Source: Stentor roeselii
Lineage: Eukaryota > Ciliophora > Heterotrichea > Heterotrichida > Stentoridae
DNA: 64,000 bases
NCBI GenBank assembly: GCA_006503475.1
Contig: RSEH01000108.1
Span: forward strand, 62,001-126,000
Reading direction: 5' to 3'
The notes under the pieces: generated by a model
What the model was told of the DNA's origin: nothing
The model's database searches: none
Seen by the model: only the letters and a program-made list of their open reading frames with translations
Shown here: positions 9,290 through 63,719 of the stretch, piece after piece
How the letters are laid out: each line of letters starts with the position of its first letter
Numbering within the stretch: position 1 is the stretch's first letter
Program-made: the position numbers and the translations under genes

Positions 9290-10696
9290 CTAATTAAGCT
9301 CTAACATCATGAGTATTCTAATCGAGAGTAAAGAGTTAAAGCAATTCAAATTCAAACATTTGAGCATGAACTGTTTCTGGGTCCTTTCTTCGTCTCCAAG
9401 AGTGTCTGGGTCAGCATTTCTTAATTCATCAAACATGACTTCTAAGTAAAATATAAATTTTTTTTCAGGTACACTGTTGATTTTTTGAGGAAATGTAATC
9501 ATATTTTTTGAATCTGCAGTGAAATTATTCGTTACTATATTGTTGCAAGTCTGTTGATCCATTAAGTCAGAAAAAATATAATCTTTTTGTTTTGCGAATC
9601 CGAAATAATATTCTAAATAAGGGTTTTTTATTTCCCATATTTTAGTAATTTTCCTAGGAACGTTAAAACTTTGCTCGATCTTAGAAGTTAATTTTGAGTA
9701 AAGGTCTACGATATGCTTCACGCCTTCTGGAGGCTGGGGTAACATTGGGCTGTTAAGGTTTATGATTTCATATTTGTTGTTTCCTGAAATTTTTTGCATT
9801 TCGTCACAGGTCAGTCCAGGGTGGCTACGTTGGCAACATTTCATGCAATGTGAGCAACTTTTGCAAGTCATGGACATCTGTAAAAGTTGTTCAACATTTC
9901 CACAGTTTTGATTGGGACATCTAATTAATTTAGCCCTACCTGCAAAGAAATTTGCGAATTTTTCATCAGTGACGAAATCAATGTATCTTTTTTCAATATT
10001 AAATTGTATGAGGTATATTTGTAAATTTTGAACAAAGTCATTTTGACTTGAAATTTCATTATAACATAGGCAGCGGATCTCAAAGATTAAGTTGCTGATG
10101 TCTTTACTTCTGTCACAAATCATGTCCCAGTAATAGTTGAGTGTATTAATTATCAGGGTCTGAATACAAGTATAGCATAGAATATGGGTACATAAAAATC
10201 TAGTTCCTGCTGATATATGAATCTGGGTAGAGCAACTTGAGCAGTAGATAAATGTGCTAGGATCTTGATAGTTTTGCCTGTAATATTCGATTTGTTCTGG
10301 ATACAATTGTAAGATGTTGGAGATATCGTTATCTGAAAATGTTGGCCCTTGTTCATTTAGAGTTGTGCATCTTTGGCATGCAATCAGATTATTTGGATTT
10401 TTATTGAAACATTCTTCTATCCATTTCTTTAAACAAAATGAGCAAAACATGTGATGATGGTTTGGGAAGCTATTTAGTGAGTTCTTCTTGTGCTTGTTTT
10501 GATTATTTTTGCAGTAGCCATCACAAACTACCATTTGATTTTTTTTCTTTAGTGTTAAACTGAGTCTAAACAAAGGAAAACTATTGATGTGCATGATAAG
10601 TCTTGAATATATTTCATTCACATTTCCTGGGTTTATGTTTAACAATGCTTCGTTCATCTCATCTACGATCATCTCACGTCTCGACTTCTTAGCCAT
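9290..10696 (-). CDS. RING/RBR-like zinc protein with truncated PARP-like C-terminus
   Basis: Encodes 468 residues with several Cys/His clusters. One at about 59-125 has HHHMFCSFCLKKWIEEC and CQRC. One at about 148-220 has CSSCSTQ and THILCYTCIQT. One at about 265-305 has CPNQNCGN, CKSCSHCMKCC and HPGLTC. This order resembles RING-between-RING ubiquitin ligases and parallels the protein at 20388-21866. Near residue 350 the stretch KITKIWEIKNPYLEYYFGFA matches the start of a PARP catalytic domain (consensus I-x-K-I-x-x-I-x-N-P-x-L), but no His or Tyr active-site block follows. The transferase part therefore looks truncated or highly diverged. Ubiquitin-ligase activity is inferred, not shown. 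Codons are AT-rich and a long AT-rich spacer lies upstream. Confidence 0.65.
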   Translation of the reverse strand: MAKKSRREMIVDEMNEALLNINPGNVNEIYSRLIMHINSFPLFRLSLTLKKKNQMVVCDGYCKNNQNKHKKNSLNSFPNHHHMFCSFCLKKWIEECFNKNPNNLIACQRCTTLNEQGPTFSDNDISNILQLYPEQIEYYRQNYQDPSTFIYCSSCSTQIHISAGTRFLCTHILCYTCIQTLIINTLNYYWDMICDRSKDISNLIFEIRCLCYNEISSQNDFVQNLQIYLIQFNIEKRYIDFVTDEKFANFFAGRAKLIRCPNQNCGNVEQLLQMSMTCKSCSHCMKCCQRSHPGLTCDEMQKISGNNKYEIINLNSPMLPQPPEGVKHIVDLYSKLTSKIEQSFNVPRKITKIWEIKNPYLEYYFGFAKQKDYIFSDLMDQQTCNNIVTNNFTADSKNMITFPQKINSVPEKKFIFYLEVMFDELRNADPDTLGDEERTQKQFMLKCLNLNCFNSLLSIRILMMLELN

Positions 10697-20387: not shown

Positions 20388-21866
20388 CTAATCAAATTCA
20401 ACCAAATACAAAGGCAAGACTATTTCCCTCTGAAAAAACACATAAATATCTGATCGATTCCCCTGACCTTCAACTTGATACGAATTAAATTCAGTGTTTT
20501 TCAGTTCATTAGGAGTTTTTATGGGGTTTTTGCTTTCCATTCCTAAAAACGCTTTACAAATCAGCAATTTCCTTGGATGTCTTTTATTTTTATAATAATA
20601 AATCGAAAGTGTTGGATCAGCAGCAGTATAAATCCCATACCCATAAGCTTTTCCTATTTTAATCTGAACATCAACTCCTCCTATTTTAAACCCATTCTTG
20701 CAGATTTCAGGGTAAATTTCAGCGCTAGTAGAATGAAACACATAAATATCATCAATAAGTCCACCTTTTCCCTGAACATTTTTCTTAAGATTTTCGAAAT
20801 TGTTTATCAATAAAGGGTTATGAATATATGTCACCCTCTTCATGATTAATTTAATTCCACTTTTTTCTACCAGCTGCTTCGCCCCGGCTTCATGTAATTC
20901 TCCTGAAAATAAAAATTTTGCCTGATTAAAGTGGTTTTTGAGATTTTGATCTTGTGAGTCAGCTTTGCATTCAGCTTCAAAGTATTCATTGATTCTTTGT
21001 TTGGCAATAAAGCAAGGAATGTTACCATGAAAAATATTTCCACATAGACAACATAAAATATGATCACAAGCTTGACATTTCTGTTTTCCTCGAATGTGAT
21101 GAAGTTCATTTAAACATTGACAAGAAGGACAGTTTGTTATTAGAATGTCTTTTAAGACTAGTTTTTTTAAAGCTTTTTGGATATTATTAACGAATCTGTG
21201 GTCATTTTCAATTGTGCTGAGAGACTGTCTGATACTTTGATGGGAAATTTCATTATTGCACTCTATACAACTCAATTCAGGTAAAGGTGTTTCAGCCCAC
21301 ATCAGGATATAACTGATTTTACACGGAATGCACATTGCATGCTCACAACTAGGAATGCCATAAGCATCATAAATTTGAGGGCATATAATATTACATCTAT
21401 TTGGTTTAATGAAAGAGCATTTTGTTTTATATTCCGAAGAAAGTTGTTCAAGTCTGAGATTTTTATCTCTTTCAAATATCTCTATTGGGATAACTTGATT
21501 AAAGTAATCATTTGTATGGATTAGCTCTGAAGGATTCCAAGCTGAAAGTGCTGAGCAACCTGGACAGACGTACTTGTGATCACTTTTGTACTTTTTCCAG
21601 TTATCTTCTATGTACTTTTTCATGCAGTGGTTACAAATAAAATGATTGCATTTCTCGAAATAATTAATCTCTTTTTTATCTTTATGAATTGATTTTTGGT
21701 GAAAGTGGTGAAAATGAGATGCGCATTCGTATTTTGGTGTACTTTTTATTGTTATTCTTGCTCTATGAGTCGCCAATTCATTGATGATCTGTTTCGCAAG
21801 CTCTGGATTGTTATTATTAAAACAATACTCAAGCATGCTGATCAAATAGTTAACCTCTGAATACAT
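20388..21866 (-). CDS. RBR-like zinc protein fused to a PARP-type ADP-ribosyltransferase
   Basis: Encodes 492 residues. The N-terminal ~305 residues hold three Cys/His clusters: FEKCNHFICNHCMKKYIE...CPGC; CPQIYDAYGIPSCEHAMCIPCK...CIEC; and CPSCQCLNELHH...CQACDHILCCLCGNIFH. Their order resembles RING-between-RING E3 ligases. Residues about 325-490 match a PARP catalytic fold: MKRVTYIHNPLLINNF, IYVFHSTSAEI (His 378), YGYGIYTAADPTLSIYY (Tyr 413), KLLICKAFLG, then SDIYVFFQREIVLPLYLVEF with Ile 474 where poly-ADP-ribosylating enzymes have Glu. An H-Y-I triad is typical of mono-ADP-ribosyltransferases. The protein thus combines probable ubiquitin transfer with probable ADP-ribose transfer; both activities are inferred. 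Codons are AT-rich and long spacers lie on both sides. Confidence 0.78.
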   Translation of the reverse strand: MYSEVNYLISMLEYCFNNNNPELAKQIINELATHRARITIKSTPKYECASHFHHFHQKSIHKDKKEINYFEKCNHFICNHCMKKYIEDNWKKYKSDHKYVCPGCSALSAWNPSELIHTNDYFNQVIPIEIFERDKNLRLEQLSSEYKTKCSFIKPNRCNIICPQIYDAYGIPSCEHAMCIPCKISYILMWAETPLPELSCIECNNEISHQSIRQSLSTIENDHRFVNNIQKALKKLVLKDILITNCPSCQCLNELHHIRGKQKCQACDHILCCLCGNIFHGNIPCFIAKQRINEYFEAECKADSQDQNLKNHFNQAKFLFSGELHEAGAKQLVEKSGIKLIMKRVTYIHNPLLINNFENLKKNVQGKGGLIDDIYVFHSTSAEIYPEICKNGFKIGGVDVQIKIGKAYGYGIYTAADPTLSIYYYKNKRHPRKLLICKAFLGMESKNPIKTPNELKNTEFNSYQVEGQGNRSDIYVFFQREIVLPLYLVEFD

Positions 21867-60820: not shown

Positions 60821-61984
60821 ATGAAAAGAGGATTCGAATTTAATTTTAACCCTGAGTTGAAAGCAAGTGTTAAAAACTCAAGCCAATATCTCAAAAAAAA
60901 AGATTCGAATATAAAAGCAAACGATACTAAAATCGAGAATATATCAAAAGAAAAAGAATCAAAAATAAATCCAAGTCAAAATATAATGATCATTCAAAAT
61001 GATTCCAAAGAAAAAGAAACAATCCCCACAAGAGAATTCATGACACCAAGCAATATCCAAGCTTTGAAGCAAGAAAGAGGTAGAAGTTTTCAAAATTCAA
61101 ATAATATTCGTTGCTTTAGTTGTAATGAGAGTCTTAAGGCAAACAAAAATCTATTATTTCACTGCAAAGCGCATATTTATTGCAATGTTTGCATAACTAA
61201 ACCTATAAACCCAGAAAAAATCAGAAGAGAATGCACAAAATGTTTCGACGAACTGCAAACTCGGTGCCCTAAAAGTAATTTAAGAAGTCAAAGTAAACCT
61301 TTCAATCAACTTGACGACTCTATAAATAAATTTTCAAATACCTCAGTTATATCTCATCGAGAATTAGAAATATCAAAGCTTCCAAACAATAGATTTAATA
61401 TTACTGGAGCACAGACACCAGTTTCTAGATATAATGAAAAGATCTACCAAAAAAATGTTTTCATGCCTTTTCATAGAGTAGATCACTATCAAAAAGAGTA
61501 TTATACTAATAGAATAAACACAAGCAATCTCTCTACAGTGAAAAATTCAAACCTCATCTATTCAAGATTAAGTTCGAAGGATTCAGATCAAAATCAAAGC
61601 ATTTTACCGGTGGTGCCTGATTGTAATAACTGTAGAGGGAAGAAACAAGTTAAAGGATTTATGTGCAACCACAATTTTTGTAGTGTTTGTTTAACTTATA
61701 GTTGCTGTTCAAATATTTATGATTTTTTTTTACAGCATAAAGTATTTTCTGGGATCATTAATTACTCTTTCACTTATTATTGCCCAATATCTACTTGCAA
61801 CTCTATCATTTCAGTTCCAACTGCAATGATTATTAATAATTTAAAAGGGTTTAAGACTGATACTGGGATTTGTGAGAAATTCAAGAAATTTGACGGAATT
61901 TTGATATATTTTGAAAATAATATGAGAACTGCTGAAAAATGGATTGCATTTTTTGATGGCTTTGCTTTTGAATTTATAATTTGA
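60821..61984 (+). CDS. RING-like zinc protein, 387 aa
   Basis: A basic, Asn/Lys/Ser-rich disordered N-terminus (1-100) and a disordered middle are interleaved with two Cys/His clusters. The first, about 104-145, reads CFSCNESLKANKNLLFHCKAH then CNVCITK and CTKC. The second, about 270-330, reads CNNCRGKKQVKGFMCNHNFC then SVCLTYSCC and CPISTCNS. CNHNFCSVCL is RING-like, and the spacing resembles the RBR-like proteins at 9290 and 20388, so it is a likely relative without a PARP domain. E3-ligase function is inferred. Ends in TGA. AT-rich codons. Confidence 0.6.
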   Translation: MKRGFEFNFNPELKASVKNSSQYLKKKDSNIKANDTKIENISKEKESKINPSQNIMIIQNDSKEKETIPTREFMTPSNIQALKQERGRSFQNSNNIRCFSCNESLKANKNLLFHCKAHIYCNVCITKPINPEKIRRECTKCFDELQTRCPKSNLRSQSKPFNQLDDSINKFSNTSVISHRELEISKLPNNRFNITGAQTPVSRYNEKIYQKNVFMPFHRVDHYQKEYYTNRINTSNLSTVKNSNLIYSRLSSKDSDQNQSILPVVPDCNNCRGKKQVKGFMCNHNFCSVCLTYSCCSNIYDFFLQHKVFSGIINYSFTYYCPISTCNSIISVPTAMIINNLKGFKTDTGICEKFKKFDGILIYFENNMRTAEKWIAFFDGFAFEFII

Positions 61985-62525: not shown

Positions 62526-63719
62526 ATGGGAAATTGTACTAAGTATAAAGTTAGACACAATTTTACGATTACTGATGATTATAAAGAAGACAGAAAAATC
62601 CTGCTAAACTCTTTGTTTAAACAAGTTTATATCGATAAGAGCTGTAAAAATGAAGAAATTTTAAAAATTTCTCTAGAGATAAAAAATCTCAACAGTCTGA
62701 TTTATAGAATGAGAAATGAACATGACGAAAAACAACTGGACTGCGCATTAGGAGCTGTCATAGGAGCTTTTATCGGAGATTCTCTCGGTTCCTCGCTTGA
62801 GTTCAAACAAAACATCTCTTCTCAAGCTCTAAATCTCGCTCTTGAAATGAAAGGAGGAGTATTCGGTAACGGCCCAGGGCAAGTGACAGACGACTCAGAA
62901 CTTGCAATGTGCTTATTGAATGGCATTTCTGATAGTCTTCCACTCTGGAACGGAGATTCTGTCGCTAAATACTACCGAGACTGGATCCTAAGTCATCCTT
63001 TCGATGTAGGAAGCACTACTCGAAAAGCTTTTCGTTTACTTCCCGATCATCAAGACTCGCACGGTCTAGCAGATGTTGCGAGAAAGTGCGCAAGTGAAAG
63101 CAACCAGTCATCTCTCAGCAATGGAAGTTTCATGCGTTCCTCTCCTTTAGCAGTATTTTGTAGACATTTCGAACCTGACCTGATCAACTGGATCGTCACA
63201 GAAGACGTGTCAATGACTCACCCAAAAAAAATCATTCAAGAGGCAGAAACTCTTTACATCATTTGCATCGCTCATCTTATTCAAAACCCTCAAGACAAGG
63301 CAGGAGCTATTCAAAAAGTTCAAAATTATGCAAATTTTAAATGTGAAGATGAGGCAAGATTGTGGCTTAGTGATTGCTTTCGTCCAGATAAGGAAATGAA
63401 GGGAAATTTTAATATTGGTTACGTCAAAATCGCATTTGATCATAGTTTCAGAGAACTTAGAAAAGAAAAAGTTAACTTTTTTGAAAGTATGAAAAGGATT
63501 TTAATACTTGGAGGAGATACTGATACGAATGCTGCAATTGTTGGAGCCATGGTTGGAGCTTATGTTGGGTATAAAGCTATTCCTAATCAGTGGAAGGAAA
63601 AAGTTGAGGGGTATACTTATGAAAGGGAACAAGGAATAAAAAGACCTTATGAGTTTCTTGATCAGACTAGAGTCAAGGGGTTAGTTGAAAAAATATTTTG
63701 GGGAGTTATGGAAGATTGA
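62526..63719 (+). CDS. ADP-ribosylglycohydrolase family protein
   Basis: Encodes 397 residues of the DraG/ARH fold, which removes ADP-ribose from proteins or other acceptors with bound divalent metal. The core starts near residue 70 (LGAVIGAFIGDSLGSSLEF). Metal ligands are visible in VTDDSELA (Thr121, Asp122, Asp123) and GGDTDTNAAIVGAMVGA (Asp331, Thr332, Asp333). All three canonical sites (GDxxG, TDD, DTD) are present, so the enzyme looks active. The N-terminal ~65 residues are an extension starting MGNC, a candidate for myristoylation and palmitoylation. It could oppose the PARP-type protein at 20388-21866, but that link is inference. Ends in TGA. Confidence 0.88.
   Translation: MGNCTKYKVRHNFTITDDYKEDRKILLNSLFKQVYIDKSCKNEEILKISLEIKNLNSLIYRMRNEHDEKQLDCALGAVIGAFIGDSLGSSLEFKQNISSQALNLALEMKGGVFGNGPGQVTDDSELAMCLLNGISDSLPLWNGDSVAKYYRDWILSHPFDVGSTTRKAFRLLPDHQDSHGLADVARKCASESNQSSLSNGSFMRSSPLAVFCRHFEPDLINWIVTEDVSMTHPKKIIQEAETLYIICIAHLIQNPQDKAGAIQKVQNYANFKCEDEARLWLSDCFRPDKEMKGNFNIGYVKIAFDHSFRELRKEKVNFFESMKRILILGGDTDTNAAIVGAMVGAYVGYKAIPNQWKEKVEGYTYEREQGIKRPYEFLDQTRVKGLVEKIFWGVMED

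Follow-up and report, generated by a model that had tools for sequence, protein, structure and literature searches.

Whether a single protein can hold both a zinc module of the ubiquitin system and an ADP-ribosyltransferase, and what such a protein would do, is the question raised by a gene of the ciliate Stentor roeselii. This gene lies in a stretch of 64,000 nucleotides (hereafter the window), which corresponds to C13:62001-126000 in the assembly searched (44.4 Mb in 522 contigs). It occupies positions 20388..21866 of the minus strand as an uninterrupted open reading frame of 492 codons, read in the standard code and closed by a TAG stop, and the 492-residue protein proposed by a sequence-only reading of this DNA is therefore intact from end to end. 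The product aligns over residues 3-491 with a paralogue, C109a, with 36% identity. The assignment of the standard code relies on the stops of 23 open reading frames of the window (TAG in 11, TAA in 9, and TGA in 3) and on the full-length rows of the family, which end together under this code. Another genetic code was rejected, as translation table 6 passes the TAG to give 664 residues. Candidate introns of 15 nt amount to four (three with a GTAA start), a class that does not stand out because other lengths yield up to nine. A viral origin was also rejected, since the window protein, when scanned once against viral contigs, gave three pattern matches and zero relatives.

The layout of the protein is read as a RING-like cluster, a RING1, an IBR, a linker, and a PARP domain, which is the order of RBR proteins with PARP in the position of RING2. 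In front of these domains there is a putative N-terminal segment with no assigned role (residues 1-45, 21732..21866, minus strand), which is aligned across the family and shows a helix only in a model with a pLDDT of ~30. Both AF2 models, for which only proteins of the window were supplied, have a pLDDT of about 30 (means of 28.5 and 32.7), and for this reason the folds discussed here are those predicted from the sequence.

Mono-ADP-ribosyl transfer is the best-supported part of the predicted function. The PARP catalytic domain, already proposed in the sequence-only reading, covers residues 338-492 (20391..20855, minus strand) and scores 47.5 bits against PF00644 (E 2e-12, with a cut-off of 26.7), the match extending over residues 338-473. 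The top match of the window protein in a phmmer search of the PDB is PARP12 (E 1.7e-5), and the profile built from seven PARP rows of the family (alignment A3) reaches PARP12 (2pqf, E 2e-14), ZAP (4x52, E 7e-13), and PARP14 (1.4e-9). A chance match was rejected on account of the E values of Pfam and of the seven-row profile. The residues of the H-Y-I triad, read in the alignment on the same strand, are His378 (20733..20735), Tyr413 (20628..20630), and Ile474 (20445..20447), all of them at the residues given in the earlier reading. The His and the Tyr are kept in six of the seven PARP rows. In the third position, where polymerising PARPs hold a Glu, these rows show I, Y, F, Y, Y, W, and W, and the catalytic Glu appears in none of the seven, which is consistent with the mono-ADP-ribosyltransferase signature previously claimed. 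The copy on C80 holds F and R in the positions of the triad H and Y, and should consequently be inactive as an ADP-ribosyltransferase. The His motif of the window protein is H-S-T, while the usual motif of PARPs is H-G-[ST]. According to the available part of a review on human PARPs, the H-Y-I and H-Y-Y members are classed as mono-ADP-ribosylating, and the table included in that part contains no H-Y-F or H-Y-W member (PMC8946771). The window protein thus contains a genuine PARP domain by sequence, with mono-ADP-ribosylation as its predicted activity.

Another PARP protein of the genome, of 261 amino acids (C510:1446-2228), reaches 31.2 bits against the cut-off of 26.7 and holds no recognised zinc module. 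With respect to the removal of ADP-ribose, the window also encodes, at 62526-63719 on the plus strand, an ADP-ribosylglycohydrolase of the eraser type (PF03747, 153.8 bits), which is one of six matches in the genome. A link between this gene and the fusion is not claimed, because they are about 41 kb apart and none of the six matches lies on C109, C122, or C80.

The N-terminal half was studied in an alignment of nine rows (A2), which includes the window protein, C109a, C109b, C109c, C80, C122a, C122b, C122c, and a relative encoded elsewhere in the window (9290..10696, minus strand), with the broken copy C122d omitted. In the zinc part of this alignment 16 of the 18 invariant columns are Cys or His, and the mean column identity is 33%. 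The three Cys/His clusters reported in the sequence-only reading are found at residues 48-104, about 150-203, and 246-285. Cluster 1 (21555..21725, minus strand) is RING-like and holds eight candidate ligands in the window protein, arranged as C48-x2-H51, C73-x-H75-x2-C78-x2-C81, and C101-P-x-C104. Among them, C48, H75, C78, C81, C101, and C104 are invariant in the nine rows, H51 is kept in eight, and C73 in four; the sole RING match of the protein reaches 17.2 bits, the cut-off being 50. Cluster 2 (residues 150-203, 21258..21419, minus strand) is of the RING1 type and shows only C182 and C203 as invariant in the nine rows. Its first ligand pair is irregular in the window protein and its subfamily, and takes the form C-x2-C in the C122 rows and in the 9290-10696 relative. 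Cluster 3 (residues 246-285, 21012..21131, minus strand) is an IBR (BRcat), and its eight ligand columns are all invariant in the nine rows.

Profiles of single proteins and those of the family differ in what they recover from this half. When the window protein is used alone, PF01485 (IBR) gives 19.5 bits, below its cut-off of 24.3, and there is no Pfam match for RING1. At E values up to 1, seven of the ten A1 rows match PF01485 and four match zf-C3HC4, the best of the latter at 9e-7. Positions 144-287 of the family profile align to ARIH1 (5udh, E 3.5e-11), in a stretch that we take to be its RING1 and IBR. This profile also matches two further RBR proteins, RNF216 (4.5e-5) and the RanBP-type and C3HC4-type zinc finger-containing protein 1 (7yui, 8.2e-5), and then plain RING proteins. 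The one match that reaches the RING2 of ARIH1 is a secondary one, which is not significant and originates from the IBR positions of the profile. The proposal that the clusters belong to the RING/IBR type is supported by the family profile for clusters 2 and 3, while the IBR and RING scores of the single protein stay below their cut-offs. Given the alignment to RING1 and IBR of ARIH1 and the absence of a RING2 after them, the three clusters are predicted to be, in order, RING-like, RING1, and IBR.

The signs of E2 binding in this zinc half are mixed. RING domains that bind E2 enzymes usually exhibit a hydrophobic residue in the first ligand pair and the proline of a CPxC motif. In cluster 1 of the window protein the first pair is C-A-S-H, without the usual hydrophobic residue, and that of RING1 is irregular, as noted above; the CPxC proline of this cluster is present in five of the nine rows, including the window protein, and absent in the C122 rows and in the 9290-10696 relative.

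The absence of RING2 is the feature that separates this family from RBR ligases. After the last IBR ligand, none of the nine family rows shows a RING2 motif, nor so much as a CxxC (76-259 residues were examined per row, two rows ending early in copies that are broken). In contrast, the 12 control RBR loci from the same genome all exhibit a RING2 motif, located 12-26 residues downstream of the IBR. These controls are the top-scoring 12 of 117 matching stretches and lean to canonical RBR genes, as they were chosen for being the best IBR matches. In all nine rows the last IBR ligand was placed from the alignment; the locus L015 and the 9290-10696 relative show no match to the IBR pattern. An unanchored RING2 pattern, which caught RING1 stretches in three of the nine family rows, failed to detect RING2 in one of 13 controls, and was misplaced in two, was replaced by the pattern anchored on the IBR. 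In the window protein, the cysteines that follow the IBR are just C300, C389, and C437. In RBR ligases, as described in the available text of one paper, ubiquitin is passed via the cysteine of RING2/Rcat, and that cysteine is required for activity (PMC3940038). Since this cysteine is absent and RBR transfer needs it, the RBR mechanism was rejected, and the window protein is, as predicted from its domain content, not an RBR ligase in mechanistic terms. The earlier description of an RBR ubiquitin-ligase module with an RBR-like order cannot be maintained, because in all nine rows the IBR is followed by neither a RING2 nor a catalytic cysteine.

The fusion is not restricted to one gene. A search with the window protein, in which the best candidates were scored, indicates that its own genome holds at least nine fusion copies. 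This search retrieved three copies on C109 (five matches), three on C122 as long matches together with part of a fourth, one on C80, and, on C396, an RBR gene of the plain type, and a further search found more of the fourth copy on C122 (C122d). Six copies are open through both halves (the window gene, C109a, C109c, C122a, C122b, and C80), and three are broken, although assembly errors are possible: the frame of C109b is interrupted at an A run, C122c contains two stop codons in a row, and the frame of C122d is broken several times. The earlier claim that a zinc module of the ubiquitin-system type and a PARP domain of the mono-ADP-ribosyltransferase type share one polypeptide is borne out, and since this combination recurs in nine copies of the genome, it is no accident of the gene model.

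The four copies on C122 (C122:44000-53999) lie within about 6.3 kb, two of them being open and two broken. In the tree of the zinc part, C122a and C122b group with C122c (support 100/99), and in that of the PARP part C122a groups with C122b (100/100), in both cases separate from the fusion copies located outside C122. The remaining inner branches mostly lack support, also in the zinc tree, and C80 forms a long branch. The agreement between both trees is as would be expected if one ancestral fusion had preceded the duplications, while falling short of proof. Nei-Gojobori pN/pS ratios range from 0.31 to 0.60 in seven comparisons covering both halves, and are rough values because synonymous sites are saturated; between the window gene and C109a, pN/pS is 0.471/0.786 in the zinc part and 0.38/0.747 in the PARP part. 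The tandem copies, the broken copies, the dead enzyme, and the strong divergence resemble, we infer, what is seen in gene families in conflict with parasites. A different gene of the window with many relatives is the Cys-rich one at 60821-61984 (plus strand), which has no Pfam match and shows 31 matching stretches in the genome (itself included), many of them clustered on C352, C517, C152, C50, and C122. Those of its relatives that were read mostly end in W-[IV]-P-[YF]-[FL]-D-G, and the Cys-rich gene itself shows W-I-A-F-F-D-G.

The relative encoded at 9290-10696 presents the same RING-like/RING1/IBR layout and has a C-terminus without a PARP match. Its IBR score is 22.2 bits, also below the cut-off of 24.3. 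When this relative is used as the query, its other matches fall on C522 and C503 (two on the latter) and are not fusion copies. No PARP match was found in it or in those of its kin that were scanned (the gene on C522 and one of the two on C503), and an hhalign comparison of the C-termini of this relative and its kin with PARP gives a probability of 5.9% and an E value of 0.0064, over 26 columns only.

Several known systems share part of this architecture. Proteins of the PARP12/ZAP (PARP13) group hold the nearest catalytic domains by sequence, and PARP12 is also H-Y-I according to the available part of the review (PMC8946771). However, PARP12 carries CCCH zinc fingers and a WWE domain, as stated in the accessible text of a PARP survey (PMC4245714), whereas the window protein carries the RING-like/RING1/IBR module instead, and has no WWE or CCCH Pfam match up to E 1. 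ARIH1 and other RBR E3 enzymes share the RING1-IBR stretch, but the window protein lacks RING2/Rcat, holds PARP in that place, and shows an extra RING-like cluster in front. In the case of DTX3L-PARP9, a RING-type ligase is physically coupled to a PARP and ADP-ribose meets ubiquitin chemistry; according to the portion of the source that is available, Deltex ligases attach ubiquitin to ADP-ribose, and DTX3L pairs with PARP9 (PMC7615817). These are separate proteins, in contrast to the one chain described here. Deltex ligases combine a RING with a DTC domain, which binds ADP-ribose, and there is no DTC match among the Pfam matches of the window protein up to E 1.

Single-chain fusions have also been published. 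The Dictyostelium protein DDB0232928 joins a U-box, a macrodomain, and PARP (PMC2964712, as far as its accessible text goes); it is a single polypeptide with both PARP and a domain of the E3 type, and has a U-box and a macrodomain where the window protein has RING1-IBR and no macrodomain Pfam match. In the UBC-PARP fusions of the PARP6/8 clade (PMC4245714, available text), the ubiquitin-system domain is an E2 domain and not an E3-like zinc module. In the accessible parts of both surveys, the domains that accompany PARP are the U-box and the macrodomain (Dictyostelium), UBCc (fungi, a moss, and a green alga), UBA (Acanthamoeba and Trichomonas), and a macrodomain (Paramecium) (PMC2964712, PMC4245714), and four clade 3 PARPs of Tetrahymena have no known domain outside PARP (PMC2964712). 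The word IBR is absent from the main texts of these surveys, as available (PMC2964712, PMC4245714). Among the literature matches listed, which comprised titles and the openings of abstracts, with subscription literature mostly outside, there is no report of the RING1-IBR-PARP layout, which falls short of absence from print. Because U-box-PARP and UBC-PARP fusions had been published, the available text of both surveys makes "an undescribed system", as the locus had been called, too strong a term (PMC2964712, PMC4245714). The S. roeselii genome encodes a second, different PARP-ubiquitin fusion at C54:19738-22941, where one open frame holds UBA, PARP, and UQ_con matches above their cut-offs.

The explanation towards which we lean, by a small measure, is that of a PARP12-like, H-Y-I mono-ADP-ribosyltransferase whose RING-like/RING1/IBR module would dock E2~ubiquitin, ubiquitin, or a substrate. 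In this scheme, the zinc module would first capture a ubiquitylated substrate, ubiquitin, or E2~ubiquitin, and single ADP-ribose units would then be added to the recruited protein by the PARP domain, a way of working that would resemble the DTX3L-PARP9 pair in its logic, though within one chain. The catalytic activity, the binding of E2 or ubiquitin, and the order of events are what we infer here, and ubiquitin-ligase activity would be possible. A bolder version, which we regard as unlikely, postulates that RING2 has been functionally replaced by PARP, with RING1-IBR holding E2~ubiquitin in the manner of RBR ligases, so that the ubiquitin meets the NAD+-loaded site of the transferase in place of a catalytic cysteine. 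If this were true, one polypeptide would yield ubiquitin modified with ADP-ribose, or a substrate bearing a hybrid of ADP-ribose and ubiquitin.

The zinc module might instead serve only for recognition or as a scaffold, binding protein, RNA, or ADP-ribose and unconnected with ubiquitin, and the protein would then be a plain mono-ADP-ribosyltransferase built on a re-used RING1-IBR, much like PARP12 with its CCCH/WWE. Such a role would agree with the lack of RING2 in nine of nine rows, with the irregular first pair of RING1 in the window subfamily, with a CPxC proline that is lacking from the 9290-10696 relative and from the C122 rows, and with the persistence of relatives that keep the zinc layout without a PARP match. 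It is nevertheless doubtful, although it has to be taken seriously, as the eight IBR ligands are kept in all nine rows despite identities of 18-30% to the window protein, and RING1-IBR is elsewhere a module of the ubiquitin system, according to the available text of PMC3940038. The homology of RING1-IBR to ARIH1 could also suggest a fusion of PARP with a genuine RBR-type E3, in which the cysteine used for transthiolation would lie elsewhere than in a canonical RING2. This is extremely improbable considering that no row of the nine holds a RING2 motif or a CxxC past the IBR, that the window protein offers just the three cysteines named above, and that the Rcat cysteine is necessary for RBR activity, as reported in the same partial source (PMC3940038). 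As for a decaying or neutral gene family whose fusion copies are duplicated relics, three of nine copies are broken, assembly errors being possible, and C80 has lost the H and Y of the triad; yet the window copy is open throughout and retains the complete triad and every IBR ligand, and pN is lower than pS in both halves, which makes this reading very unlikely.

Regarding the preferred reading of a mono-ADP-ribosyltransferase with a docking module of the ubiquitin system, its interest lies in the fact that in animals the contact between ubiquitin signalling and ADP-ribose signalling is made by separate proteins, DTX3L and PARP9 among them. The retention of RING1-IBR without RING2 bears on what this half-module does alone. 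A single-chain fusion with six open copies and varied third triad residues suggests that the coupling is useful to the organism, and provides a compact test system.
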